This document shows positions 1 to 31,100 of a stretch of DNA of 36,684 nt, piece by piece. The notes beneath the pieces are model-generated. The model saw only the letters and a program-made list of their open reading frames with translations, did not search any database and had not been told where the DNA came from. Every line of letters starts with the position of its first letter. Positions within the stretch are counted from its first letter, which is position 1. The translations under genes and the position numbers were made by a program. The stretch spans positions 1 through 36,684 of IMG/VR virus record IMGVR_UViG_3300025687_000141; one strand, given 5' to 3'. The DNA comes from a virus.

Positions 1-43
1 TACTTTTCTAACTTCTCTGCCCATTTTGCTCTACTCCAGTTAA

Positions 44-130
44 GTTATAACCAGGGCATCAAAAGGATGCCGCTCTGGTGTGGTTGTTAAATTCTCTTAA
101 GTGTTGGCACCTTTTATGCCAGCGTTATGC
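44..130 (+). other. attC-like recombination site A
   Basis: Outer boxes GTTATAAC (44-51) and GTTATGC (124-130) form the complementary R pair. Inside them GGCATCAAAAGGATGCC (54-70) pairs with GGCACCTTTTATGCC (106-120), leaving exactly two unpaired bases, a C and an A, on the plus-strand 5' arm. Such a pair of extrahelical bases in the L arm is the hallmark of attC folding and puts the attC top strand on plus. The roughly 35-nt apical spacer is unpaired. Site B at 1329-1414 is nearly the same sequence. Confidence 0.72.
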
Positions 131-409
131 GTAGCCTTGTTTCTTGGCTTCGGCTTCCCAGTCAATCGTAAATGCCATATGCAGTTCGCAGCATCCCTGC
201 TGCGTCTTGAAAGGGAACCCTTTTAGGTTGCTCATATACCCCTTTTCCGGGTGCTCACACGCGTACCATTGCGGTCCGTATTCAGGGCCGTCTGATTGAT
301 CCATGCAGTGGGTGCAGTTCTCACAAGATGCGAGCACCGGCTTTCCCTCAAAGTCAGGGAGGTGGCCGTCACGCATAACCACACGTTCTTTCTGATTCGC
401 TTCGCTCAC
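125..409 (-). CDS. Cassette gene: Cys-rich small protein, 94 aa
   Basis: Function unknown. The GTG start at 409 follows a good GGAGG ribosome site with 7-nt spacing, and the gene lies 16 nt after the 106-aa gene, so the two are probably co-transcribed. The protein carries CENCTHC, a further YACEHP and a late GCCELH, a set of Cys/His residues that would fit one structural zinc site. No signal peptide or membrane segment is seen. The TAA stop is part of the GTTATGC core box of attC-like site A, as in other genes of this array. Cassette genes of this size usually lack characterised relatives. Confidence 0.8.
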   Translation of the reverse strand: MSEANQKERVVMRDGHLPDFEGKPVLASCENCTHCMDQSDGPEYGPQWYACEHPEKGYMSNLKGFPFKTQQGCCELHMAFTIDWEAEAKKQGYA

Positions 410-425
410 AGCAAAACCTCCATCG

Positions 426-746
426 TTATATTTTCGGCGTATACATACTGAACTGGTCGTCGTGTTCGTCCTTAATTAGTAGTTGTACGCTTTCCGGGTA
501 CTCCCATTCAATACCGTGGAACCACTCGACAAATTCATCAATATCCAGGTAGTTGATAGCCGCCATGAAAACATCGCACTGCATGGCTTTGTTCCCGCCA
601 GCGTGATCGTCAACTTTAACCAAGTACGCCCCGTTATGGTTACGAACAAGGTAAGCGCTGAGCTTGTCGGCGTTTGGGTGGCTATCCTCCACATTCGATC
701 CATCATCTATACTGGTCATAAAAATAATGTCTGCTACATGGCTCAT
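426..746 (-). CDS. Cassette gene: acidic small protein, 106 aa
   Basis: Unrecognised. The start chosen is the ATG at 746, because AGGAG sits 6 nt upstream of it; an in-frame ATG two codons earlier directly abuts that ribosome site. The protein is acidic and soluble, with an aromatic C-terminal half (EWFHGIEWEYPESV) and no visible catalytic motif. It opens a two-gene cassette that ends with the 94-aa gene. attC-like site C lies immediately upstream of its ribosome site, so the cassette boundary is close to position 762. An antisense frame of similar length is probably only a shadow. Confidence 0.8.
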   Translation of the reverse strand: MSHVADIIFMTSIDDGSNVEDSHPNADKLSAYLVRNHNGAYLVKVDDHAGGNKAMQCDVFMAAINYLDIDEFVEWFHGIEWEYPESVQLLIKDEHDDQFSMYTPKI

Positions 747-761
747 TATCATCTCCTAAAA

Positions 762-830
762 ATATAACAAGTTGCTCAAGTTCGTGCTTCGCACGGGACG
801 GCTACGCCGCCCCTTAGCTTGGCGTTAGTT
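762..830 (+). other. attC-like recombination site C
   Basis: Plus strand reads ATATAAC (762-768), then GTTGCTCAAG, then GCCCCTTAGCTTGGC and GTTAGTT (824-830). GCTCAAG (773-779) pairs with CTTAGC (813-818) with one extra C on the 5' arm, the same asymmetry seen in Vibrio-type attC sites whose top strand ends in GGCGTTAG. Two further small hairpins fill the middle (GTGC-TTC-GCAC and GGCTACGCC). This site differs in sequence from A and B, so the array mixes attC families. It separates the two-gene cassette from the lipoprotein gene. Confidence 0.66.
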
Positions 831-1076
831 GCAGTTAGCTACGCAGCTTCTGGCTTGGTAGTAAGCGACGTTGTCGCATTCAGCTACCACTTCATCCCAG
901 TCGTTGTATTTGGTCTGTTGTGGGCCAGCAGGCAACGCTTCCATGCAACGGAAGAATAGCTCTGTCCGTAGCTTCTGGTCGGTTTCCCACTTCTCGGGCT
1001 TCACGCTGTCGCAACCCGCCAGCAAAGCAACTAACAAGCACAAGCAGCCGACTATCAATATTTCCCCGCTTTTCAT
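825..1076 (-). CDS. Cassette gene: predicted lipoprotein, 83 aa
   Basis: The N-terminus has two polar/charged residues, a hydrophobic run and the lipobox LAGC around residues 19-22, so it should be exported, lipidated on Cys22 and signal-peptidase II processed. The mature part is about 60 residues with four more Cys (FRCMEA, AECDNV, RSCVANC), compatible with disulphides in the periplasm. Start is the ATG at 1076, preceded by GAGGA. The TAA stop lies in the AACTAAC core of attC-like site C. Phage-borne small lipoproteins can block superinfection, but that role here is only a guess. Confidence 0.82.
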   Translation of the reverse strand: MKSGEILIVGCLCLLVALLAGCDSVKPEKWETDQKLRTELFFRCMEALPAGPQQTKYNDWDEVVAECDNVAYYQARSCVANCN

Positions 1077-1100
1077 ATCCGTGTTTCCTCGTTTTTAATC

Positions 1101-1136
1101 AGCCGTTGTTGTGGCGGCTGTCGTGGTCGTTATGTG
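1101..1136. other. Possible degenerate attC or intergenic hairpin
   Basis: CAGCCG (1101-1106) and CGGCTG (1116-1121) form a 6-bp stem with a 9-nt loop, followed by GTTATGTG (1129-1136), which matches the right core box of site B's partner sequences. No clear left core box is found, so it would be a shortened or decayed attC. The stop codon of the 61-aa gene lies in the core-like box, as at the well-formed sites. A plain hairpin between two genes is the alternative. Confidence 0.3.
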
Positions 1137-1315
1137 TCCTCTCCAAGCACCCATTTCAGCGCTTGCCTCCGTGCTGCGTGCCGGCCTTGAATGCGTCGGT
1201 ATTCATCCTTCTTTACCTCGGTCATTTCAGGTTCTTCGTTAATGATTCTGTCAATCCTGTCGTACTCGCCTTCCTGAAACCCAATTTCTGCGTTGATCTG
1301 GTCCTCAGTCTTCAT
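1130..1315 (-). CDS. Cassette gene: charged helical protein, 61 aa
   Basis: Unrecognised. The ATG at 1315 follows AGGAGAGGAG, which begins immediately after the core box of attC-like site B, exactly how cassette genes usually start. The product is highly charged and probably all helical (repeated E/D and R/K, e.g. DRIDRIINEEPEMTEVKKDE), a size and composition typical of small antitoxin-like or regulatory proteins, without a specific match. It ends at a TAA inside GTTATG at 1130. No partner toxin can be named with confidence. Confidence 0.7.
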   Translation of the reverse strand: MKTEDQINAEIGFQEGEYDRIDRIINEEPEMTEVKKDEYRRIQGRHAARRQALKWVLGEDT

Positions 1316-1328
1316 AAGCTCCTCTCCT

Positions 1329-1414
1329 CACATAACCAGGGCATCAAAAGGATGCCGTTCCGGTGTGGTTGTTATTTAAGTTAAGTGCTGCCACCTTTTA
1401 TGCCAGCGTTATGC
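1329..1414 (+). other. attC-like recombination site B
   Basis: About 85% identical to site A. CACATAAC (1329-1336) and GTTATGC (1408-1414) are the R boxes; GGCATCAAAAGGATGCC (1340-1356) pairs with CCACCTTTTATGCC (1391-1404), again with an extra C and an extra A on the plus 5' arm, plus one mismatch near the apex. The high similarity of A and B, with a divergent apical spacer, is what is seen among attC sites from one bacterial lineage. Confidence 0.72.
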
Positions 1415-1723
1415 CCCGTACTTTTCCTTCAATCGGGCAAGTTCTTCGCGCTCTCGCTGTTCGGCCTGCTGCGCTCGTTTTGCCTTTATTTTGGCCTGCT
1501 TCTGCTCGTACTCATCAACCGAGATAATTCCAGCATCTCGCTTTATGTAGTCCTCGGCGTCATCGGCAAGCACGAGGTCGTGCGAATCTCCGTAAAACTC
1601 CACATCAAAGTAGGCGCAAGTGCCGTCGGTGAAAAACAGCACAAGGGATTCGTTAGTGTCCACCGAAGTAGCTTTAGCCACTGTTTTGCCTTCCAGTTCA
1701 GAAAGGTCAGTTACAAATTTCAT
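1409..1723 (-). CDS. Cassette gene: acidic protein with coiled-coil tail, 104 aa
   Basis: The ATG at 1723 is preceded by GGAG at 9 nt; a longer upstream frame has no ribosome site and runs through the promoter, so it was not used. Residues 1-60 look like a compact beta-rich fold (VLFFTDGTCAYFDVEFYG), followed by a long charged helix (QKQAKIKAKRAQQAEQREREE). The TAA stop is inside the core box of attC-like site B. First gene after the leftward promoter, so it should be the best expressed of the array. Function unknown. Confidence 0.8.
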   Translation of the reverse strand: MKFVTDLSELEGKTVAKATSVDTNESLVLFFTDGTCAYFDVEFYGDSHDLVLADDAEDYIKRDAGIISVDEYEQKQAKIKAKRAQQAEQREREELARLKEKYGA

Positions 1724-1751
1724 ATTAATCTCCGTCAGGGCTTGTGACTGA

Positions 1752-1780
1752 ACTGTAATACACAAAGTCATACAAGTCAA
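1752..1780 (-). promoter_or_regulatory. Leftward promoter of the cassette genes
   Basis: Minus strand: TTGACT (1775-1780), 17-nt spacer, TACAGT (1752-1757). It lies 29 nt upstream of the 104-aa gene start. The motif TGTAATAC (1754-1761, plus strand) overlaps the -10 box and recurs at other promoters in this window. Confidence 0.55.
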
Positions 1781-1783
1781 CAC

Positions 1784-1818
1784 AAAAAAGCCCCCGGAGC
1801 TGGGGAGCGAACCGGGGG
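1784..1818 (-). terminator. Leftward rho-independent terminator
   Basis: CCCCCGG (1791-1797) pairs with CCGGGGG (1812-1818) around a 14-nt loop, followed on the minus strand by six T (1784-1789). It stands directly before the cassette promoter and would stop stray leftward transcripts, insulating the cassette genes. Confidence 0.7.
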
Positions 1819-1926
1819 AAAAGGTCTCACTTACATCTAGGAACAAACGGAGAATCTAAACTGCTGTCTAAATACGAGCCCTCACTATACCATAGATACC
1901 CAAATACACAACGGTTAACTTACCAC

Positions 1927-1955
1927 TTGCAAAATCCCCGTGTAATACGTATCCT
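1927..1955 (+). promoter_or_regulatory. Promoter of RHH regulator and replicase
   Basis: TTGCAA (1927-1932), 17-nt spacer, TATCCT (1950-1955). TGTAATAC (1941-1948) lies in the spacer just before the -10 box, a position where a bound repressor would block polymerase; this fits autoregulation by the RHH gene directly downstream. Confidence 0.5.
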
Positions 1956-1987
1956 TGTCTTACAATTCCCGAAACTTTGAGGTTTGC

Positions 1988-2176
1988 ATGAAGACGCACG
2001 TAAAAAACGACATGATTACCATGAGGATCGACACCTTCACTAAACTAGATGCTATCGAGATGGCCGCGTCGGACGGGTACAACTCCCTATCGGAGTGGAT
2101 AGTCCACATGCTCAAAAAGGAGCACATTCGTCGCAAACGCACCCAGAAGCGTAGAGCCCAGAAAAATAATAACTAA
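1988..2176 (+). CDS. Ribbon-helix-helix (Arc/CopG-like) DNA-binding protein, 62 aa
   Basis: The segment after Met9 (MITMRIDTFTKLDAIEMA) reads as a beta-strand with alternating residues, then helix A, an SDGYNSLSEW turn with helix B, and a very basic tail (RRKRTQKRRAQKK). This is the RHH layout, a dimer whose paired strand enters the major groove. Start is the ATG at 1988 with GAGG 5 nt before; a TTG at 1955 is less likely. It is the first gene of the rightward replication unit and has an operator-like TGTAATAC in its own promoter, so it is a candidate repressor of the early promoters. Confidence 0.8.
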   Translation: MKTHVKNDMITMRIDTFTKLDAIEMAASDGYNSLSEWIVHMLKKEHIRRKRTQKRRAQKNNN

Positions 2177-2203
2177 GTAAATCAAATACTAATCAATACA
2201 TCA

Positions 2204-2220
2204 CCCCGTACCGGGGTTTT
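2204..2220 (+). terminator. Weak hairpin between regulator and replicase genes
   Basis: CCCCG-TAC-CGGGG with TTTT after it. The short stem suggests partial termination, lowering replicase expression relative to the regulator. Confidence 0.45.
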
Positions 2221-2249
2221 GTGGGCTGTACTAAAATCGAGCAAACCTA

Positions 2250-4673
2250 ATGACTGATAACGCAACACTGTGGGGATCGGTGGCCCTGGCTAACCACTTG
2301 AGTAAGTTGGATGCCGCACTGCTATACGCCAGTCTGGGAATAAAGGTGTTTCCTCTAGCACCTAAGACAAAACGACCCTTACTCAAGGGTAGTTGGAAAG
2401 ACCACGCCACCACTGACCGGGCTCAGATCAAAGAGTGGTGGACAAATCTACCAGAGGCCAACATCGCCGGGGCTATGGGGTTCGACTCCGGTCAGATCAT
2501 AGCAGCGGACCTCGATATGAAGAAGGGTCAAGACGGGTGGCAATCCTACCAACATATAGCGCCCGGACCCGTAACCTCACCCCTACAACAAACCCCCTCC
2601 GGTGGATACCACGTCATCCATGAGTGGGTGCCCGACCTGATAAACTTTACCCACAAAGGTGAGTTCGGCGGCGTCGACATGCGAACCGACAATGGTTACA
2701 TCGTCATGGCCCCTTCGTGGACCGAGAAGTCCAATGATTCAGAAGAGGGGTACTATCAGTGGATCCAGGGTGGTGTACCTCAGATATCAAACGCCCATGC
2801 TGATCAGTACACTCGATGGTCTCAGGAATCTAAGGTTCGCACAAACCTAGACATGCCTGAACCCGCCGACATCGACAACTTAAAACCTCTCATTGACACC
2901 GCCCTACCTCAACGCCATCTCCAGTTTCTTCAGACGGGAGAGGTTGACAACCGATTTGACGGTGACCGCAGTTCTGCGATGCTCGGTGCGGCCGGTGCCT
3001 TGTACCGGATGGGCTTTAATGACTCCGAGGTGCTGGCCTACTTGGAGTCCAGCTACGCGATGGATGTGGCGGTAGAACACAGGCCCCGGGGCGATGCCTT
3101 GGAGTGGATCTGGGAGTATACCTGCCTGAAGGCCAGAGAGTCCCTCCCGCCCCCACCGCCGCCTACGCCAGCGGAAGCCTTCTCCGGCATCCCTACTCCA
3201 GGACAACCGGAATCTCCCGAGGGGGAGGCTGCTGTGAACCCTCAGCGGTTGATACCGGCTGAGTCTGAGAACGAGCGGCTTGAACGACTGGCGGACAACA
3301 TACGACCCGGTGACGACGACGACATCATTAACATCTACATGGCAGCGTTGAAGGTTAACGCGATCTTCGGTGCTCGCATCGCCGACATCCTCTGTCAACG
3401 AGGAGCCTTGACCAAGTCCGCTCTCGCCCAGGCAGCAAAAGAGGCCAAGCGCAATCTCAGAACCCAGAATGCCCAAGGCGCGGAGTTGGGGTACCCGGAT
3501 TTCCCCTTCGTAAACGAGAGTGGCGCACCTCGGGATCACGTCGATAACGTCGTAGCAATATGCAACACTCACGGTATCCACATTCAGCACAATTTGATGA
3601 AGCACAGCATTGAGGTGTTCACCCCAGGAGGGGTATGGGATAACGAGGATCGAATCAACCAACAACTATCCACCATGCGGGACTTCGCTGTCCAGTATGG
3701 TATGCCCCACCAACGAATGGGCGAACACCTCAACACTATAGCCCGACGTAACAGCTACCACCCAATGGTGAGACTGCTGGACTCCGTCCAATGGGACGGG
3801 GTGCCTCGACTGCAGCGAATGCTCGACACGATCAAGACCCCACACCAGGAGGAGCGGAATACCTACGTCACCAAGTGGATGCTGTCCGGTATCGCGGTGT
3901 TGCGCGGGTACGGCAACATCCCGCCCCGTGGTGTGTTCATCTTCACGGGCGCCCAGGCCAAGGGTAAAACCTCATGGCTAAAGTATCTGACCCCTGACGG
4001 GTTGTTCGGCGAGGGTAAGCACCTCGACCTGAATAACAAGGACTCCATCAAGGAGGCTATCAGTTATTACATCGTCGAGTTGGGCGAGTTGGACGGTACC
4101 TTTAACCGGTCGGAGTTGGCTCATCTGAAGGCCTACCTGAGCCGTGAGAACGACACCATTCGACTCCCCTATGCGCCGTCTGAGAGCACCTTCACACGGC
4201 GTACCATCTATGCCGGTACGGTTAACCATATCGAATTCCTTAAAGACCAGACTGGTAACAGCCGATTCTGGCCAATCGAAGTGGACGACATCGACCTGGA
4301 TACCATACGGATCATGAAAGAGCAGGGCGAGATGCTGCAGGTCTGGAAAGAGGTCGAGGCCATGTACTACCGGGGTGACCAGTGGTGGTTAACCCGTGAT
4401 GAGTTGACAAAACTGGAACAACACAATGAGAATTTCCGCGAGGTTAGTGGTATTGAACAGATGCTCCTGGACAAGTTTAACTGGGACAACCCTGACCGGT
4501 GCGACATGACATTAACCGAGGTGGCTAAAATGCTTGACTTGAAATTGAACAGTGGGCGGGATCATCCTGACCTACGCAACGCCCTGGTACGACTGACGGG
4601 CAACCGTCGGGCTGTTCCAAAGAAGGTGGGCGGTAAGACCCAGCGAGTCTGGAAGGTGCCGGTGCTGTTATGA
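2250..4673 (+). CDS. Replicase: PrimPol domain fused to VapE-type SF3-like helicase, 807 aa
   Basis: Residues about 20-190 match the bifunctional primase/polymerase fold: VFPLAPKTKRP near 33-43, the metal-binding DLD at 87-89, SGGYH at 117-121 and GVDMRTDNGYIVMAPS at 141-156. Residues about 500-700 are a virulence-associated-protein-E type ATPase with Walker A GAQAKGKTS (567-575) and an acidic Walker B-like VELGELDG. A Pro-rich linker (PPPPPPTPAEA) near 297-310 joins the parts. It should synthesise primers and unwind DNA at the origin. No replicative polymerase gene is visible in the window. The ATG at 2250 follows a modest GAGC ribosome site. Confidence 0.88.
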   Translation: MTDNATLWGSVALANHLSKLDAALLYASLGIKVFPLAPKTKRPLLKGSWKDHATTDRAQIKEWWTNLPEANIAGAMGFDSGQIIAADLDMKKGQDGWQSYQHIAPGPVTSPLQQTPSGGYHVIHEWVPDLINFTHKGEFGGVDMRTDNGYIVMAPSWTEKSNDSEEGYYQWIQGGVPQISNAHADQYTRWSQESKVRTNLDMPEPADIDNLKPLIDTALPQRHLQFLQTGEVDNRFDGDRSSAMLGAAGALYRMGFNDSEVLAYLESSYAMDVAVEHRPRGDALEWIWEYTCLKARESLPPPPPPTPAEAFSGIPTPGQPESPEGEAAVNPQRLIPAESENERLERLADNIRPGDDDDIINIYMAALKVNAIFGARIADILCQRGALTKSALAQAAKEAKRNLRTQNAQGAELGYPDFPFVNESGAPRDHVDNVVAICNTHGIHIQHNLMKHSIEVFTPGGVWDNEDRINQQLSTMRDFAVQYGMPHQRMGEHLNTIARRNSYHPMVRLLDSVQWDGVPRLQRMLDTIKTPHQEERNTYVTKWMLSGIAVLRGYGNIPPRGVFIFTGAQAKGKTSWLKYLTPDGLFGEGKHLDLNNKDSIKEAISYYIVELGELDGTFNRSELAHLKAYLSRENDTIRLPYAPSESTFTRRTIYAGTVNHIEFLKDQTGNSRFWPIEVDDIDLDTIRIMKEQGEMLQVWKEVEAMYYRGDQWWLTRDELTKLEQHNENFREVSGIEQMLLDKFNWDNPDRCDMTLTEVAKMLDLKLNSGRDHPDLRNALVRLTGNRRAVPKKVGGKTQRVWKVPVLL

Positions 4674-4909
4674 GTGGGAATAAGATGTATTCATGGTGGG
4701 ACGAAGAGTTAACGGATGACGAGGATGTCTTCTTCGCCGCCGACTGGGACGAGGCTAAGGAGTTTACCGCGTTTAGGTTCATGGGTGTGGTTGGTGTACA
4801 AGGCGAATATTACGGGGACCTGTCTATAAAAGATCACAACACAGGGGAGATCAGACGGTTTGAGCTTCGTATTAGCATGACCCCTGAGATTAACTGGAGT
4901 CCGCTATAA
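4670..4909 (+). CDS. Small acidic protein downstream of replicase, 79 aa
   Basis: ATG overlaps the replicase stop (ATGA), so translation is probably coupled. N-terminus is strongly acidic (WWDEELTDDEDVFF), followed by a likely beta-rich part (FRFMGVVGVQGEYYGDLSIKD). No motif recognised. Its position suggests a replication accessory role or a DNA-mimic-like regulator, but nothing in the sequence proves it. It ends 5 nt before a bidirectional terminator. Confidence 0.72.
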   Translation: MSGNKMYSWWDEELTDDEDVFFAADWDEAKEFTAFRFMGVVGVQGEYYGDLSIKDHNTGEIRRFELRISMTPEINWSPL

Positions 4910-4913
4910 AATA

Positions 4914-4935
4914 AACCCGGCCATTGAGCCGGGTT
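4914..4935. terminator. Bidirectional rho-independent terminator
   Basis: AACCCGGC / GCCGGGTT, a perfect 8-bp stem with loop CATTGA. It separates the convergent rightward replication unit and leftward early operon; on the minus strand it is followed by TTTATTTTAT. Confidence 0.85.
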
Positions 4936-4953
4936 CTTCGGGGGTGGGGTTAG

Positions 4954-5343
4954 TTAGTCCTGGGGTCTCTCTATGAGGGACTCCTCCCAGGGTACTGTAC
5001 CCTTGTCCAAGTTGGCGAGGAGTCCGCTTATACGTACCATATACCCGAGTTTGAGATTGTGTCTACGATGACTCTCAGAGGCTACAGGAGGCTCAGTCCC
5101 CCTGTACGCCCACACGCTTCCGTCCCTATCCCGAGCAACCCACCGTATATCCTCGTGCAGTACACTCCAGTCCAGGGTGATGGGTGTGGGTTTGATACGG
5201 TACTTTCCGTTAAAGGATAGCGCCCATCCATTCGTTGGGGTCCACTCCGAACCGTTCCACACCTCTACCCTCGTAGTGTGATTCAGCATGGTCTCAAGTA
5301 ATTCTACCTGCTCTGTCCAGGGTAAATCTTTAAAACTTTTCAT
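4954..5343 (-). CDS. Early-operon protein, 129 aa, unknown
   Basis: Last gene of the leftward operon. ATG at 5343 overlaps the stop of the preceding gene (ATGA). It begins FKDLPWTEQVELLETML and then has an EVWNGSEWTPTNGWALSFNGKYRIKP stretch resembling short phage proteins that describe a WNG-x-W turn followed by a YRIKP strand. No membrane segment or catalytic motif. The KPT segment (IKPTPITLDWSVL) resembles IKPTFLISRVTFNDL in the neighbouring 64-aa protein, so the two may share a fold. Confidence 0.72.
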   Translation of the reverse strand: MKSFKDLPWTEQVELLETMLNHTTRVEVWNGSEWTPTNGWALSFNGKYRIKPTPITLDWSVLHEDIRWVARDRDGSVWAYRGTEPPVASESHRRHNLKLGYMVRISGLLANLDKGTVPWEESLIERPQD

Positions 5344-5534
5344 ATCGGTTCCTCAAAAGTAAAAACATCAAAGTCGGTCCACGTAGTCCCCAGGTCGTTG
5401 AATGTAACCCTCGATATGAGGAACGTGGGTTTGATCTCCTTCCACAGTTTGGCTTCTCTCCACCGATACCACCCTCCCAATAAGGGTCTGTTTCTATCGG
5501 GGTGGTCTCTTGGTAAGTCATTCAGAATCTGCAT
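5340..5534 (-). CDS. Early-operon protein, 64 aa, unknown
   Basis: ATG at 5534 overlaps the stop of the upstream Cys-rich gene (TAATG) and its own stop overlaps the next start (ATGA), so it is embedded in a coupled chain; this chain decides between it and a competing frame in the same place. Contains GGWYRWREAKLWKEIKPT and a TWTDFDVFTF end. No domain recognised; partial likeness to the 129-aa neighbour. Confidence 0.66.
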   Translation of the reverse strand: MQILNDLPRDHPDRNRPLLGGWYRWREAKLWKEIKPTFLISRVTFNDLGTTWTDFDVFTFEEPI

Positions 5535-5812
5535 TAATACGACCCGTGCCTTTCCTTAAAATCGGCCTCCGTGGGGCCTGTGGGGTGGTGGGTACACCAG
5601 GGGCTACTCCCTCGGGCGTGAGGGAACGGAAGTCCATCACATCGGCACGCCCTCCGCTTGTTCCGACCCTTCTCCTTCTCGTCTACCGACTTTAACGTAT
5701 CCCGCTTGCAACAAGGACAGTGGGGTCGGCGGACGTACTGCTCAATCGGTCGCTTCAGGGTCTTCCTGGCCCCGCACGTCCGCCGGATGCTGCATCGGTA
5801 GTTGTATGCCAT
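5534..5812 (-). CDS. Cys-rich zinc-binding-like phage protein, 92 aa
   Basis: Pattern C-x5-C (CSIRRTC), CPCC, CRC and WCTHHP around basic residues (ARKTLKRPIEQYVRRPHC) suggests two zinc sites and nucleic-acid contact. It resembles a small protein family seen in many proteobacterial phages with RxCxCDGxPFPHxxGS; function of that family is unknown to me. The N-terminal YRCS is part of the pattern, so the start at 5812 is kept although it overlaps the upstream gene by 71 nt in another frame. Confidence 0.74.
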   Translation of the reverse strand: MAYNYRCSIRRTCGARKTLKRPIEQYVRRPHCPCCKRDTLKSVDEKEKGRNKRRACRCDGLPFPHARGSSPWCTHHPTGPTEADFKERHGSY

Positions 5813-6005
5813 GGACGGGTGCCCTCAGTCTCAGTAGCCCGGATCGGATCGCCTTCTCCACCTTTACGATGGGTTGATGATCCCATGTTGCAGCCGTGGC
5901 GTCGTTAAGCACCACCTCTGCCGCTTTAATCGCCTCATTCCACACGGCCCGTTGATCGGGCGTCAGGGTACTGATGTACGCTTGGTAATAGGCGGCGGTT
6001 TTCAT
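5742..6005 (-). CDS. Early-operon protein, 87 aa
   Basis: Helical, no Cys, begins MKTAAYYQAYISTLTPDQRAV. Start overlaps the preceding stop (ATGA). The last 23 codons overlap the following Cys-rich gene out of frame, unusually long for this operon, where overlaps are normally 1-4 nt; an ancestral stop may have been lost by readthrough or frameshift. Function unknown. Confidence 0.68.
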   Translation of the reverse strand: MKTAAYYQAYISTLTPDQRAVWNEAIKAAEVVLNDATAATWDHQPIVKVEKAIRSGLLRLRAPVHGIQLPMQHPADVRGQEDPEATD

Positions 6006-6502
6006 GGCTGTTCATCCAACAGACAGTAGGCAACTATACCACGGGATACCATACCGTACCCCCACCACGTGATTGTCCCATTTTTATACTTTATTAAAGC
6101 CCTACCCTCGGGTATCGAATCCCCCTCTTTCCAAGGCACCCAGTTAAGGTGAGTCGGGTGGGGCTTGCATTGGTTCCAACGCTCACCCCCTATGGTTTTA
6201 TGTGGACAACTGTCGTGGTTCTCATAATGGCGATATTTACGTGGTACCCAACGGGAGTACTCATTGTCTCGAACCAATACCAACTCTCCGGTCTTGGGCA
6301 CCCACTCTGGCTTGGTCCGTTCAACCAGTTTCAGGGAGACGGGTAAGCCGTTACGGAACTGACCATACTTGGTGAACTCTTCGTCACGCAGGGCACCGAA
6401 GAACCGCACCCTCATAACGTCCCCGTTTTTGAACTCAACCACTTCGCCCTCGCCAAAAGTGTCGCTGTGTACTTTGTCACCTTTTTGGAATTCAATAGTC
6501 AT
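6002..6502 (-). CDS. Early-operon protein, 166 aa, unknown
   Basis: Begins FQKGDKVHSDTFGEGEVVEF followed by VMRVRFFG, which looks like an SH3/KOW-type small barrel (KGDKV...GEGEVV...VRF), often involved in binding nucleic acid or protein. The second half is Trp/His-rich (ENHDSCPHKTIGGERWNQC) and ends with a WVPWKEGDSIPEGRALIKYK motif. Start and stop both overlap neighbours by 4 nt. No enzyme motif. Confidence 0.75.
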   Translation of the reverse strand: MTIEFQKGDKVHSDTFGEGEVVEFKNGDVMRVRFFGALRDEEFTKYGQFRNGLPVSLKLVERTKPEWVPKTGELVLVRDNEYSRWVPRKYRHYENHDSCPHKTIGGERWNQCKPHPTHLNWVPWKEGDSIPEGRALIKYKNGTITWWGYGMVSRGIVAYCLLDEQP

Positions 6503-6714
6503 CTCGGTACCCTCTTCAAATTACCACGTTCATCACATTCTAAAAAGATCCCGTTGTCGTTCAGATGGTGACAAGGAACCCCTATGGTGACCACGATCTC
6601 CTCCCCCGCGTCGTTAGTTATACGCACCATGCGATAGAGAGATGGGGTGGCGTTGTACACCTTCCCAGGGGTGATCGTTGACTCACTTATACAATCGGTT
6701 TTTATATACCTCAC
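6499..6714 (-). CDS. Early-operon protein, about 71 aa
   Basis: Two starts are possible: ATG at 6774 (91 aa) or GTG at 6714. The GTG is preferred because it forms a GTGA overlap with the stop of the 35-aa membrane peptide and has GGGAG 8 nt before it. Sequence PGKVYNATPSLYRMVRITNDAGEE with GIFLECDERG resembles small phage beta-barrel proteins of unknown role. Its stop overlaps the next start. Confidence 0.62.
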   Translation of the reverse strand: MRYIKTDCISESTITPGKVYNATPSLYRMVRITNDAGEEIVVTIGVPCHHLNDNGIFLECDERGNLKRVPR

Positions 6715-6818
6715 TTCAGTATCTCCCAGACAGCCCACCAACTGAGTAGACTGATCGTAATAGCGGCTGACCATACGATCAGCATCTCCCGGCCTGTCGG
6801 CTTGTCGTTGCGCGGCAT
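6711..6818 (-). CDS. Single-pass membrane micropeptide, 35 aa
   Basis: ATG at 6818 has an excellent AAGGAG ribosome site (AAGGAGAATAAG-ATG). After a polar N-terminus (MPRNDKPTGREM) comes a hydrophobic helix (LIVWSAAITISLLSWWAVW) and a short tail. The stop couples to the next gene. It reads as an inner-membrane peptide; a role in membrane potential, exclusion or lysis timing cannot be told apart. Confidence 0.62.
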   Translation of the reverse strand: MPRNDKPTGREMLIVWSAAITISLLSWWAVWEILK

Positions 6819-6883
6819 CTTATTCTCCTTCAGTAATCAAGAATGTTGACAAGATTAGGCGCTAGTGGATTGTCGCCCATAAG

Positions 6884-7105
6884 CTACCACTCCTTTAGAA
6901 TCTGTAACACCTCGGTACGGTTTTCTTCTAGCCATTTAATTAAGTCTTCAAAATGAACATATGAGTAGGCTGTGTTACCGTAAAGTTTGTTGTTGTCGTA
7001 CCAGCCATCGAGGTCCAGTTTGGCTTGGTGCGCATTCGCGGCCTTTTTTTCTTGGAAGATTTCACCGTCGGAAGTCTTAAAGGCGTTGATTTTTTCGATG
7101 GTCAT
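6884..7105 (-). CDS. Early-operon protein, 73 aa
   Basis: Start overlaps the stop of ninX (ATGA-type). Begins with a short beta part (AFKTSDGEIFQEKKAANAHQ) and ends with an amphipathic helix (FEDLIKWLEENRTEVLQIL). The F-x-TSDG-x-x-F-x-x-KKxA-x-x-HQ arrangement occurs in small uncharacterised proteins of several phages. Function unknown. Confidence 0.74.
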   Translation of the reverse strand: MTIEKINAFKTSDGEIFQEKKAANAHQAKLDLDGWYDNNKLYGNTAYSYVHFEDLIKWLEENRTEVLQILKEW

Positions 7106-7500
7106 TTAATTAGTTCCTCTGGTACATCCACTTCATCACCTAGTTTACGGGTCACGTAACAGCGCATAGCAGCGATCAGGGGTGTGGGGCCATATTTTAA
7201 GTAACCGCCTGCAGTTGTTCGCGCCCAACATATTATGTCTCGGTCAAGTAGGTTGCAATACGCAGGATCGCATTGGTATCGATATCCAATACACAGCTTC
7301 TCCCGCTCAATGATTGGGCCTCCTTGTGCCCAATCTGTAGAGTAGTAAGGTAACTCTTCATATTCGCCCCCCTTACTTAACCACCAACCGCGCCATATGC
7401 GACCATGGCTGTGCATGTCATACAACGGCGCTCTGCCCTCACACGTAGCCACTGCCCAGTCGAGCGCCCTACCTGTTAACTCTGAAGTCTTCACTCTCAT
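7102..7500 (-). CDS. ninX: NinX-like protein (DUF2591), 132 aa
   Basis: Opens with MRVKTSELTGRALDWAVATC and carries YSTDWAQGGPIIEREKL and the C-terminal GPTPLIAAMRCYVTRKLGDE block, the recognisable signature of DUF2591/NinX proteins found in the nin-type regions of lambdoid and other phages. Length is normal for the family. Biochemical role is not established. Start ATG at 7500 has GGGG 7 nt upstream. Confidence 0.9.
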   Translation of the reverse strand: MRVKTSELTGRALDWAVATCEGRAPLYDMHSHGRIWRGWWLSKGGEYEELPYYSTDWAQGGPIIEREKLCIGYRYQCDPAYCNLLDRDIICWARTTAGGYLKYGPTPLIAAMRCYVTRKLGDEVDVPEELIK

Positions 7501-7504
7501 ATCA

Positions 7505-7672
7505 TCACCCCGCTTGTCTCAGATAACGTAGTGCTTCCAACTGGCGAGCCAGACGATAAAGCCCTAGGGGTACGCCACGGCGTTCGCAGTAGCGTCGAGC
7601 GGCGAACCGCCCCCATGATTTAACATTCTTTGCGGCTCGAACTGCGTGGTGTGCTTGTGGATGTAGGTTCAT
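7505..7672 (-). CDS. Small basic protein, 55 aa
   Basis: ATG at 7672 follows GAGGA with good spacing; stop is 4 nt before the ninX start. Rich in Arg and His (HHAVRAAKNVKSWG, ARRYCERRGVPLGLYRLARQLEALRYLR), giving two probable helices with a strongly positive surface, compatible with RNA or DNA binding. Similar short Arg-rich proteins are seen near ninX in other phages. Function unknown. Confidence 0.74.
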   Translation of the reverse strand: MNLHPQAHHAVRAAKNVKSWGRFAARRYCERRGVPLGLYRLARQLEALRYLRQAG

Positions 7673-7703
7673 GACTCGTTCCTCGTTTTTGTTAAAGGTT
7701 GTA

Positions 7704-8078
7704 TTACAAGACTACCAACGCGATAAGCAAGAATACGTTGAGAGCTAGGCTCAGTGTGAGGTACAGGAGCGCCTTCTCCAACTTGGCACCCCTGTCGAGT
7801 ATCACCCTCTCAGAAATCCTACAATAAATGTTAAGTTGGCTCATACGGCTGAGGGTACGCTCTGCAGCTTGGCGTCGCATATCCTGTCCGGCGTGGCTCT
7901 TATTCGACATAGTTATCGCCTTAGTATTCGATTTTATGATTGGGGCCTTCATATACTCCGCTATGTAACGAAGTCGCTCCTGTTCGTCCCAGAGGGTTGA
8001 CCCTTGGGCGTGTTCAGGTGCGGTTCCACATTTAAACCACAAACTGGCAAACAACGATTCATCGGTACTGTGTGTCAT
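7704..8078 (-). CDS. Tail-anchored membrane protein, 124 aa
   Basis: Soluble N-terminal 100 residues rich in charged helices, then one C-terminal hydrophobic segment of about 21 residues (LTLSLALNVFLLIALVVL end), so the bulk should face the cytoplasm. ATG at 8078 has GGAGG 9 nt upstream. A copy of GTATTACA (7701-7708) overlaps the stop region. Function unknown. Confidence 0.72.
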   Translation of the reverse strand: MTHSTDESLFASLWFKCGTAPEHAQGSTLWDEQERLRYIAEYMKAPIIKSNTKAITMSNKSHAGQDMRRQAAERTLSRMSQLNIYCRISERVILDRGAKLEKALLYLTLSLALNVFLLIALVVL

Positions 8079-8084
8079 GAGTGC

Positions 8085-8264
8085 TCACCTCCAACCTTTT
8101 GATAGTGCGGAACGATGAATCATTTGACTGATCACAGGCCCATCGGTGAAATAAACGCAGACCATTCCATTTGTTCCTATCACTTCTGCAAGAACATTAA
8201 CACCGTGCCGATCGTGATATTTTTGATGCGTTGACGGTTGATTAATCCATGCTCGGTATAACAT
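8085..8264 (-). CDS. Early-operon protein, 59 aa
   Basis: ATG at 8264 overlaps the stop of the preceding gene (TAATG). Product has a small beta-rich core (GVNVLAEVIGTNGMVCVYFTDG) and a basic end. No family recognised. It ends 6 nt before the tail-anchored membrane gene, whose GGAGG ribosome site lies over its last codons. Confidence 0.68.
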   Translation of the reverse strand: MLYRAWINQPSTHQKYHDRHGVNVLAEVIGTNGMVCVYFTDGPVISQMIHRSALSKGWR

Positions 8265-8515
8265 TAGGACTTCTCCACATATACGCTTGATAGTCTCTTG
8301 ACTGTGCCGATCTCACGTTGACGGATGCCTGCGGCGTGATAGCGTTGGCGCTTGGCTCCCGTTCGAGACGTGTAGCCGGTAGGCTCTTCGCCGTCTATCA
8401 GCAACACATCATCCACGATCAGCATTTTAGGGGATCTGTGATGCGCGGCTGCCGTGATGGTTACAGGACGCCAGCCTGCAGATGTGTATACGCTGGTGTT
8501 GTATTCGATTTTCAT
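8264..8515 (-). CDS. Early-operon protein, 83 aa, probable Hint/beta-fold fragment of unknown role
   Basis: Start ATG at 8515 chosen because AGGAG lies 8 nt upstream; a longer frame overlaps the previous gene. The sequence SVYTSAGWRPVTITAAAHHR then KMLIVDDVLLIDGEEPTGYT alternates strands and turns, reminiscent of small Hedgehog/intein-like or OB-like pieces, but no catalytic Cys is present. The C-terminus is Arg-rich. I do not assign a function. Confidence 0.66.
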   Translation of the reverse strand: MKIEYNTSVYTSAGWRPVTITAAAHHRSPKMLIVDDVLLIDGEEPTGYTSRTGAKRQRYHAAGIRQREIGTVKRLSSVYVEKS

Positions 8516-8519
8516 GATT

Positions 8520-8717
8520 TTAGCTCCTATGGACGTAGCCATTAGCATAAACCGTAAAACCTGACTGGGTGCATACCCTCTGGTAAACATCCGTGGTCTT
8601 CGTTGCTATGACGACATCACCCAGGCCTTCGACGAACGCTGTGAGATCTCCAACGCTGCGGAGGTTCGTTGATACCTCATTAGGTAGGAATCGGTTTTCG
8701 TAGTCTGAAAGTTTCAT
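8520..8717 (-). CDS. First gene of leftward early operon, 65 aa
   Basis: ATG at 8717, GAGG upstream. Probably helix-strand mixture (RSVGDLTAFVEGLGDVVIA, then QRVCTQSGFTVYANGYV). It is closest to the leftward promoter (8750-8778) and so should be among the earliest and most abundant products; the usual position for small host-takeover proteins. Nothing recognisable in the sequence itself. Confidence 0.7.
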   Translation of the reverse strand: MKLSDYENRFLPNEVSTNLRSVGDLTAFVEGLGDVVIATKTTDVYQRVCTQSGFTVYANGYVHRS

Positions 8718-8749
8718 CTCGACGTCCTCGTTTTTGTTAATGTAAGTTT

Positions 8750-8792
8750 AATCTACTCCAATCGTATTACATTGTCAACAAGTTTGTAATAC
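8750..8792 (-). promoter_or_regulatory. Leftward early promoter with palindromic operator
   Basis: Minus strand TTGACA (8773-8778), 17-nt spacer, TAGATT (8750-8755). A perfect inverted repeat GTATTACA (8764-8771) / TGTAATAC (8785-8792) with 13-nt centre flanks the -35 box. This is the clearest operator in the window. Confidence 0.75.
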
Positions 8793-8795
8793 ATT

Positions 8796-9614
8796 TTATT
8801 TGAACTGCCCCCCCACTCTCAGGGCGTAGCGGATCCCTCGGGCCACGTTTCCACCGCCGATCCTCTCAACGTAGTCATACTGCTCCTGGCTCAGGCGTAT
8901 CGACTCCTTGGCCGTTAACCGGTAGTCGGGTTGTTTCTCCACGTCGATCTGCTTCCTGGGATCCAGGGGGGTCTCGATCAGTCGATCGATCACGTAACGC
9001 ACCCCGCGACTGGCTGAGGCCATCGGCTTACCTGTAGGGGTACGGGCTCCAGGGATCTCACCCAGGCGCATCGCGGTGTTCAGCTCCGCGTTAGTGAGGC
9101 TGGCCGTGGTTACTTTCCGAGGCGGTGGTGGTGGCTCTGGGGTGTACACGGTACCCACCTCGGCGTCGATGACGGCCTGGGGGAACAGGCGCACGGCAAT
9201 CCGCAGGCCTCTTGCCACGTTACGATAGCCCAGGCTCATGGCCTGTTTATAGAGTACCTGGGTCAAGGTGACGTTAAAGGGGCTCTTCACCATGGGCTCT
9301 GGGTCGATATCGTCCTGGCGTCTCAGGGCCTCGGCATCAAAGATCACAGGGGGTGGGTAGGTGTCGAGGCCCAGGACGTGGACGGCTCGGCGGAGACCCA
9401 CCTGTAGATCACCCTGGCCGATTTTAGTAGCTTTTGTGATGACGGAACGCGTCAATCGGACAGACACATTCTTAGGTTTTTGCCTCGTGTCTTGGCCTGT
9501 TCTATAGCGCCCCGGAGGCATGGGATCAATAGAACGGGGAGCGATCGGAGGGGGAATTACGGGGTTCATTACTTTATACCATGGGTTATGAGTCATATTA
9601 TATAGTGTATTCAT
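8796..9614 (-). CDS. Protein with four tandem RHH-like units, about 272 aa
   Basis: Four units share a strand, a helix and a helix ending in the consensus N-V-x-R-G-L-R-x-A-V: about residues 50-82 (LQVGLRRAVHVL), 113-144 (RNVARGLRIAVRLF), 168-212 (SASRGVRYVIDRLI, with an insertion) and 237-267 (GNVARGIRYALRV). RHH proteins normally supply one unit and dimerise, so this chain could form two internal pseudo-dimers. Pro-rich linkers separate units. It lies beside the main control region, so a DNA-binding regulator or origin-binding protein is likely. The start is uncertain: no good ribosome site precedes the ATGs at 9614, 9596 or 9569. Confidence 0.74.
   Translation of the reverse strand: MNTLYNMTHNPWYKVMNPVIPPPIAPRSIDPMPPGRYRTGQDTRQKPKNVSVRLTRSVITKATKIGQGDLQVGLRRAVHVLGLDTYPPPVIFDAEALRRQDDIDPEPMVKSPFNVTLTQVLYKQAMSLGYRNVARGLRIAVRLFPQAVIDAEVGTVYTPEPPPPPRKVTTASLTNAELNTAMRLGEIPGARTPTGKPMASASRGVRYVIDRLIETPLDPRKQIDVEKQPDYRLTAKESIRLSQEQYDYVERIGGGNVARGIRYALRVGGQFK
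9597..9602 (-). promoter_or_regulatory. Candidate -10 box of the tandem-RHH gene
   Basis: Perfect TATAAT on the minus strand, but no matching -35 at 16-18 nt. If it is used, translation would begin at the ATG at 9569 rather than 9614. Confidence 0.3.
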
Positions 9615-9638
9615 TTGGTGTAGGGGAGTCAACGTCGT

Positions 9639-28187: not shown

Positions 28188-31100
28188 ATGGGCAAGTCCC
28201 TATGGGATCAAGATTGGAGCGCACCCCAGGGTGACGCTCCTGTTGCTTCAAATTCGTCCGACATGTGGTCAAGAGACTGGTCCATAGATGCCGTAGAACC
28301 CTCAGTTGCAGACCCAGAGATGGGAGACACTGTAGCTGGCGCAAACTCAGGCTTGGAAGGACTGAAGGGGTTGTGGCAGTATGGGAAGGCTGGCTTCGGC
28401 CAGATGATAAAAAACCCTGAGATGTTGAAGGAGGGGTTGGCTGCCGCTAAGGAGCACGAGCGTAAGGCCGCAGAGTATGGCCAGGGGCGCATTACCAATT
28501 GGGACGACATAACCGATTTCGACAAGGACCCCATCCAGTTCGCTAAGGACTTCGCTGACTACGCTCAGTTCGGTATGGGTACGCTTGCCCCGCACGCTGC
28601 AGAGTCAGCGTTAAGTGCCATAGCAGGCGGCGTCATTGGTGCGGCCACAACGGGTGGCGTCGCTACAGTCCCCGGGTTCTTCGGTGGCCTCCTTACAAAG
28701 CAGGCGATGAAGGAAACCCTCAAAGCCTACGCGAAGCACGAACTCAAAGACGTCGGTAAGGATAAACTCAAAGCCCAGGTAGAGAAGGACTTCGCTGAAT
28801 ACGCTGCCGGAACCCTGAAGGACGAAGCCAAGAAGCAAGTCATCCAAGGTAGTATCAAACGAGCCGGCGCATCGATCGGTGCCAAGGCCGGTGCCTTCGG
28901 GGCAGGTACGTCCACGGGCTTTGGCGATCTGTACAGCAACACGGTTGTCGACGGTGAGGGTTCACCTTACATGGCGGCGGCAGGGGCACCGATATACGGA
29001 GCACTGGACCTGATACCCGAAGCTATGGGGATCGATCGGATCATGAAGTCCGGTGCCGGATCACGGCTTGGAAACTTCGTCAAGGGTTTGTTCACGCAAG
29101 CCCCGGTCGGGTCTGTGACAGAGATGTCCCAGGAGGAGATGAACATCCAACTCCAGGCCCTCCATGACCCGAACTACGACCCATGGGGTGAAGACGCCTG
29201 GGTTAGACGTCGCGAGTCTGGGATCCTCGGCTTCATGGGCGACGGCGTGCTCGGTGGTGCTACTGGCGCTCTGCAGAAACCCGTGTCCGAGGCGCAGAGT
29301 GTCGACGAGGCGATTGCCCTGGCTGATCAACACGCTGGTATGGTTCTCCACGGAGCGCGTCAGCAGCAGGCCAATCAATTGTCTGCCATACAGTCGATCA
29401 TAGGTGCCAGTGACGTATCTCTGCAGACGATGCCCACCAGTCAGGAGGATGCGTACCGAGGGGTCGTCGAGTCCATATTCAACGACGCCAAGCAGAACCT
29501 ACCGATCTCTCAGGAAGAGCGTAACCAAAACGTCATAGATCAGACACCTACTGAGTTGACCGAGGGTGAATTGGCACCGGCTCGTCAATTGGCGGCTGAT
29601 GCTGATATGCGTCAACGGTTGGCGATTAACGAGAAGGAGCCACCCGAGGCAGCGCAAACCCGACAGGAGGCTCAGGCCAGTTGGATCGACGATCTACAGG
29701 CAGAGAGTGCCGTTGACAAAGCCCCCATCAATAAGGCCATGGCCGATGCCCTGGCTAAGGCTGGCGTTGTAACTGAACAGCAGGCCGCTGATGCTGGGGT
29801 TAAATTCTCCTCAGAGCAGTTGGCCGAGCGGGCGAACCAAGCAGCGACGTCTGACCTAAACGACCTAAACCCCCCCACTGAAGCACAGAAGGAGGCGGGT
29901 AACTATAAGGTCGGTAAGATCACGTTGAATGGCTTAGGGGTGAGTATTGAGAACCCCAAGGGCTCACTACGCGAGGGTACGGATAAAGACGGGGTCAAGT
30001 GGTCTCAGAAGCTGGGTGCCCATTACGGTTATATCCGAGGTACCGTAGGTGCCGATAAGGATCACGTCGACGCCTTCCTCACGGACAACGCCTCGGATGC
30101 TAATGCCCCGGTATTTGTTGTGGATCAGGTTACCCCCGGAACCACGAAATTTGATGAACATAAGGTTATTCTCGGGGCAAAATCGGAACAGGAGGCCGTT
30201 GACACCTACCTGTCTAACTATGAGGCGGGTTGGAAGGGTTTGGGTAGTATCACCCAAATGGACCAAGCGACGTTCAAAGAATGGGTTAAGGATCCTAAGA
30301 ATACGGCTCGTCGGTTAAGTATAAGACCTTATAAGGGGACTCGTAATGTCAGAGAAGATTCCAAGCTATACGTCGGGGAACCCTCCTCGGACCAGGAGTT
30401 TCAAACCACCCAAGGCTCAGTCGACTCACCCGAGTCCACCGGAGTACAAAACGGGAGCAGAGGAGTTGAAGACACATTCCTCGCAAACTACAAACACGTC
30501 CCGACAAAGACCGTAAAGGTAGGTGTTGAGAAAGTCACCACTCCTGAGGAGGCCGCTCATGTCCTGAGTTCGATCCGTAAGGGGGCTCAAGAGGTTTTCT
30601 ACGCATTGGTCTTGGGAGAGGACGGTCGGATCCTAGACATCCAGAACCTAACCAAAGGGGATCGTTCGGGAGCGTCCGTTCCCCCCAACGTCGTGGGGCC
30701 TTCGATTGCATCAGTTCCTGGGGCGGCTCAGGTCTACTACGGCCACAACCACCCCTCTGGCGAATCGAGTCCGTCCTCCGCAGACTTAGCTATAACCAAA
30801 GCGTTGGACGAGTTCCTCGATGGAAGTGGGATAACCCCCAAGGGTCACGTCGTGATAGCCAGTGGTGGGTCCGCTCATTTCATCGGGACGGACTCGTCTC
30901 AGACCCCGGTGAAGATTAAACCCCGGTTGCGTAAGCGTACGGTATCTGTGACAGAGCGAGAGGTGCGTAAACTCCCCCCCAAGGACCGGACTTCTATAAC
31001 CTCAGAGTCCGTCGGACGAGAGGTGTTAAAAGACCTACCCAGCGACAGTCTGGCGTTATTGGATAACAAACATCAGTTGGTAGGGTCGGTCAACCTAACC

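Follow-up and report, generated by a model that had tools for sequence, protein, structure and literature searches.

Antisense small genes beside a cluster of predicted attC sites in a tailed-phage genome suggest a phage kind of gene cassette

The left end of a tailed-phage genome carries a cluster of predicted attC sites whose accompanying small genes all run antisense to them. The genome is a 36,684-base virus record, IMGVR_UViG_3300025687_000141, which we analysed over its whole length and refer to as the window. In bacterial integrons, a cassette gene lies in the sense direction of its own attC site. All five genes of positions 1-1723 of the window are instead encoded on the minus strand and run antisense to the sites, and this reversal of gene direction relative to bacterial integrons, found here and in most attC-bearing phages, suggests that phages have exchangeable gene cassettes of a type of their own. 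We consider it probable that small phage genes are exchanged as antisense cassettes by what we infer to be a host integrase acting in trans. Clusters of attC sites in phages have already been published (Qi et al. 2023), and what is new here is the polarity; a search of the open-access literature, with subscription papers and preprints outside its scope, returned no report of antisense polarity in phage cassettes.

A cluster of attC sites at the left end of the window

The record has the markers of a tailed phage, namely TerL and a major head protein (both PHROGs) and an SU10-type portal, and it encodes a Prim-Pol/VapE primase. The closest relative that we found, G335, shares 77% amino-acid identity in the major capsid protein and 68% in TerL. 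No DNA relatives were found by megablast of the window against the phage collection, and a peptide-pattern search for viral relatives of the window primase found none. Elsewhere in the window, positions 28188-33995 encode a 1935-aa virion-type protein with inorganic pyrophosphatase (InPase) and RadC-like JAB domains, and a homologue of phage P22 NinX lies on the minus strand at 7102-7500, inside a second block of small genes (4954-9632).

Because we wanted an independent test of the sites, we restricted our covariance model to chromosomal attC sites, building it solely from those that adjoin integron integrases (TIGR02249) in bacterial genomes. The genomes were one Denitromonas, reached through the 21-base core shared by sites A and B (see below), and 299 genomes sampled from the same phylum. 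A simple motif rule supplied the candidate sites; once two with doubtful boundaries had been set aside, 43 lay in the expected direction and 2 in the opposite one. The model alignment comprised 27 attC sites. In arrays held out of or unused in the model, all 55 of the listed matches, at 15-42 bits, fell on the expected strand. A strict motif finder gave no matches at threshold in 1.1 Mb of shuffled window sequence searched on both strands; in the window it returned A and B without any relaxation, and C once the setting was loosened slightly. An initial motif finder was set too tightly to admit site C, and the looser finder and the covariance model took its place.

The best three model matches in the window were sites C (762-830; 32.8 bits, E 6e-5), B (1330-1414; 31.9 bits, E 9e-5) and A (45-130; 28.1 bits, E 5e-4), all on the top strand and within 1.4 kb. 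In site A, R'' occupies 45-51 and R' (GTTATGC) 124-130. The fourth match reached only 13.8 bits (373-431, plus strand; E 0.42, not significant) and may be a decayed attC site between genes 1 and 2. All three sites have paired R and L boxes with an extrahelical base in the 5' arm, and they contain every position that is invariant in the 27 bona fide chromosomal sites (AAC-N7-TCAA ... TTA-N7/8-GTT, plus the extra C in the 5' arm). The first-pass annotation had described three elements with attC anatomy at 44-130, 762-830 and 1329-1414, and they are present at essentially those coordinates; where it had estimated A and B to be about 85% alike and C to be a different member, we measured 89% identity between A and B and found C to be another attC type. 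It had also proposed a covariance-model search of both strands, in which all three sites were matched on one strand.

An Rfam search gave no match, to an attC family or otherwise, and blastn of A/B and of C against plasmids and phages returned short partial matches only. In silico, site C folds weakly, and the bottom strands of A and B fold no better than the top strands; folding does not single the bottom strand out, and we dropped its identification through single-strand folding alone. On the strength of the model, the held-out arrays and the shuffled sequence, we take A, C and B to be genuine attC sites of reliable direction, and predict that they are integrase substrates. The absence that the first-pass annotation had noted extends to the profile level: the integron integrase profile TIGR02249 has no match in the record, which is possibly incomplete, so that the array is, by its defining features (at least two attC sites close together and no integrase), predicted to be a CALIN, that is, an attC cluster lacking an integrase. 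It is not a complete integron, with intI, attI and Pc, as no intI is found in the record.

The five minus-strand genes are small. Gene 5 (1409-1723, 104 aa), which is promoter-proximal, matches PHROG 14651 (E 1e-4), and gene 4 (1130-1315, 61 aa) matches PHROG 14829 (E 4e-4). Gene 3 (825-1076, 83 aa) encodes a lipoprotein-like phage protein of PHROG 10627 (E 4e-14), with homologues in Xanthomonas phage X1, Pseudomonas phages Bitten and KoPa-4, and Erwinia and Cronobacter phages; a model search around three of these homologues found no attC sites, and the genes there stand in ordinary operons. Gene 2 (426-752, 108 aa) has AGGAG before an ATG near 746 and a weak tblastn match to a Klebsiella phage (E 4e-3), and gene 1 (125-409, 94 aa) has a GTG start at 409, an internal ATG near 376 and a weak PHROG match (E 0.33). 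Given the phage family of gene 3, with its relatives in ordinary operons, and the weaker PHROG matches of genes 4 and 5, at least part of the cassette content is ordinary phage genes. PADLOC found no match among the five cassette proteins.

The genes are tightly fitted to the sites. For genes 1, 3 and 5, the TAA stop falls within an R' box (G^TTA), that of A, C and B, respectively. Genes 2 and 4 also stop in a CGTTA, though one that is not followed by a good attC site, and these ends are perhaps lost sites. None of the units has the canonical cassette layout, with the gene sense to the attC site and the site downstream, as all five genes are antisense. The first-pass annotation had recognized the cluster, which stands, but had left this polarity unremarked, and it had placed five small genes between the sites, which holds for four of them, the fifth (1409-1723) lying beyond B. 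Upstream of gene 5, a consensus scan marked a promoter-like site for the minus-strand operon (1752-1780, minus strand), although such sites were not above chance in that scan (2 found, 2.4 expected). A terminator-like hairpin with a T-run lies just upstream of gene 5 and ahead of the promoter-like site (1790-1808, minus strand).

Gene direction in viral and bacterial arrays

We scanned IMG/VR with a generic attC pattern, which is neutral on polarity since it requires one box to contain TAAC and the other GTTA. The scan yielded 93 contig stretches, of which 80 loci were retained, and the covariance model gave 160 matches at E ≤0.5 on those loci. In this viral sample, which rests on one pattern plus a small second pattern and consists of predicted viruses, partly fragments, with genes called by a simple script, the longest ORF between neighbouring attC sites was sense in 31 cases and antisense in 65, compared with 51:1 in chromosomes. 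ORFs of at least 40 aa with a stop flush in an R box were sense to antisense 33:3 in bacterial arrays and 26:73 in viral ones; at 73 of the 146 viral attC sites, the stop of such an antisense ORF coincides exactly with G^TTA. When each contig was scored by its majority, chromosomes were 14:0 and viral contigs 8:30 (Fisher p 2e-7). Among genes with an ATG and a good Shine-Dalgarno sequence, the bacterial ratio was 17:2 and the viral ratio 4:71. Expressed as antisense to sense, 71:4 in phage versus 2:17 in bacterial arrays marks phage cassettes as a distinct class rather than stray host cassettes. The second pattern, in which apical loops could be long, matched mostly by chance, and the model confirmed few of its matches; its contigs were antisense in five cases and sense in two.

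A TerL gene was detected with one profile in 14 of 31 attC records, which indicates that many of these records are true phages. A bona fide intI was present in one of the 34 viral records with several attC sites, that of L104. Two of the sense viral contigs, L087 and L104, resemble host integron arrays, and neither has TerL. Several genes of the other antisense arrays match PHROGs.

Published phages fall on both sides of this division. CALINs have been described in phages TJE1, PH101, MW202573 and P12002L, where the arrays are called typical and gene polarity is left unremarked, and IntI1 was shown in an assay to recombine the attC sites of PH101 and TJE1 (Qi et al. 2023; PMC9892861). Like the array in the window, these are integrase-less attC clusters in tailed phages, some of them virulent. 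We found PH101 (deposited as H101) and MW202573 to be antisense, as in the window, judging mainly by operon direction; for the most part, their gene stops do not lie flush. TJE1, by contrast, carries sense cassettes according to the covariance model, and the antisense rule is therefore not universal.

Distribution and movement of the cassettes, and other explanations

The presence of attC sites is sporadic among relatives. G335 has one clear attC site (31.0 bits), placed elsewhere than those of the window and also antisense, plus an 18.6-bit candidate. Among the contigs that carry a relative of the L118 helicase gene, attC sites occur in only 2 of 21, L118 itself counted, and both (L118 and L306) are antisense. 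The array is thus not positionally conserved, which speaks against the counter-reading raised in the first-pass annotation, that the elements are ordinary terminators held at fixed positions. A related explanation is that the sites are attC-shaped RNA signals, either terminators or processing hairpins, that precede every ribosome-binding site, with recombination incidental. The antisense layout does have the attC bottom-strand sequence transcribed just 5' of each Shine-Dalgarno sequence, and extra hairpins would then sit in the mRNA. However, a search of the minus strand at the three sites revealed no T-tract terminator, the invariant AAC, TCAA, TTA and GTT with the bulged base fit integrase contacts and not a terminator, and in addition to the sporadic presence among relatives, one cassette is exactly present or absent within GTTAT in a pair of phages described below. 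We regard an RNA signal as very improbable.

The 21-base core of A and B occurs in only 2 of about 85,000 species genomes, a Denitromonas provirus and Anaerotignum; the Anaerotignum match was rejected as a chance match within a coding gene. In Denitromonas halophila, contig NZ_VMNK01000014, positions 1-8000 (L006/L003) are a predicted provirus with attC matches at 354-476, 706-790 and 1631-1688, which adjoin small minus-strand genes, and one of these sites is 84% identical to B. The D. halophila genome also has four integron integrases, and the attC sites of its array are not of the A/B type. An ordinary origin for the window array could be drawn from this: a piece of a chromosomal integron captured by illegitimate recombination and kept as a passive remnant, its antisense genes being due to chance or to unusual host cassettes. 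The full bacterial attC anatomy of A, B and C fits such a capture, as do the four integrases in the organism whose provirus has an A/B-like site and the integron fragments known in Vibrio phages (PMC9892861). It is nevertheless quite unlikely, as a host fragment would retain sense genes, which prevail 33:3 in hosts, whereas phage arrays are antisense. Gene 3 is a member of a phage protein family, several genes in other antisense arrays match PHROGs, the Denitromonas array lacks A/B-type sites, and of the two genomes with the core, one holds it in a provirus and the other in the chance match.

Movement of a whole unit could be seen in phages other than that of the window. The phage contigs L098 and L114 are 97.6-99.8% identical on both flanks of a single difference, a 253 bp segment (1486-1738 in L114) that is missing from L098, and the junctions share GTTAT, which contains the integrase cut G^TT. 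The segment holds a 63-aa minus-strand gene with a Shine-Dalgarno sequence and a TAA stop at the junction, plus a 31-bit attC site; it is exactly one antisense cassette, and it is here that a unit-wise cassette difference at G^TT was observed. The L098 junction has no attC site upstream and coincides with a stop codon, which implies that either the cassette came in at a bare G^TT spanning the stop codon or the reverse took place. A search for more relatives of L098 and L114 found none. L079 and L105 share blocks of small genes in different order around a common attC site, which lends weak support only, as the block breaks are not exactly at G^TT.

The same junction is compatible with another process, in which circles carrying only an attC site insert at the TAAC stops of an existing phage operon and the polarity is a by-product of gene-sparing insertions. 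The antisense stops placed exactly at G^TTA at half of the viral sites (73/146) would follow from it, A and B are near-identical yet stand beside different genes, the L098 junction lies at a stop codon without an upstream attC site, and insertion at attG (a non-attC G^TT) is documented by Loot et al. 2024, as cited in PMC11023631. Against this, the sole clean event, that of L098 and L114, moved a gene and an attC site together, and no attC-only insertion was seen; we consider insertion in place doubtful. The attC x attG reaction, as Loot et al. 2024 are cited in PMC11023631 and PMC12901181, would through scattered G^TT entry also explain the L098/L114 junction on our preferred reading of whole-cassette exchange. 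In those citing accounts the reaction is described in bacterial genomes, whereas here it would take place in phage genomes and at stop codons.

A proposed route of cassette exchange

On the reading that we favour, the units between the attC sites at the left end of the window would be antisense cassettes of small minus-strand phage genes. In the coding direction, each mobile unit would consist of the attC bottom-strand sequence, a ribosome-binding site, one or more genes and TAA; genes that adjoin an attC site have their TAA within the R' box, which puts the integron cut G^TTA immediately behind the stop codon. Transcription of the minus strand by the phage itself, from a putative operon promoter rather than an integron promoter, would read the cassettes as an operon. 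An integron integrase supplied by the host or by a co-resident element would act in trans on the folded bottom strands of the attC sites, with the result that cassettes may be gained, lost and reordered. New cassettes could enter at an attC site, or at a G^TT overlapping a TAAC stop codon, leaving the upstream gene intact.

We infer two reasons why the antisense polarity might be kept. Insertions at stop codons would be tolerated, as the gene survives a cut at TAA|C. In addition, the recombinogenic bottom strand would be the coding strand, exposed during transcription, and it would also be the lagging-strand template if replication and transcription are co-directional. In V. cholerae, cassette excision is higher when the bottom strand is on the lagging strand (PMC11023631), and the attC of PH101 was recombined with attI1 by IntI1 with a preference for the bottom strand (PMC9892861). 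Exchange from phage to phage looks more likely than spread between integron-bearing hosts, given that an antisense cassette at a host attI would oppose the direction of the integron promoter.

The comparison with sedentary chromosomal integrons of bacteria shows where the likeness ends. The window shares with them the R''/R' boxes, L boxes whose 5' arm has an extra base, a variable apical part and the G^TT junction; they have intI and sense cassettes expressed from Pc, whereas the window has no intI and antisense genes that would be read with the phage operon. Tentatively, we would extend this to a widespread and separate phage pool of antisense attC cassettes, cut after the stop codon, in which polarity may be maintained for two effects: the attC strand that recombines coincides with the coding strand, which transcription exposes and which serves as lagging template, and the genes stay within the phage operon. 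If true, phages would exchange genes by way of host integrons that serve as the recombination machinery, and the antisense pool would be largely silent once captured by a host integron. From the polarity rule it would follow that accessory genes of phages are reshuffled by host integrases, and attC arrays carried by phages could be tested simply by their polarity. The rule is also relevant to the question of how cassettes originate, since cutting right after stops would turn existing phage genes into cassettes. As to cargo in other phages, antisense cassettes of L124 (3903-4595) and L105 (1340-2116) carry DNA methyltransferases (PHROG 67), likely as anti-restriction cargo.
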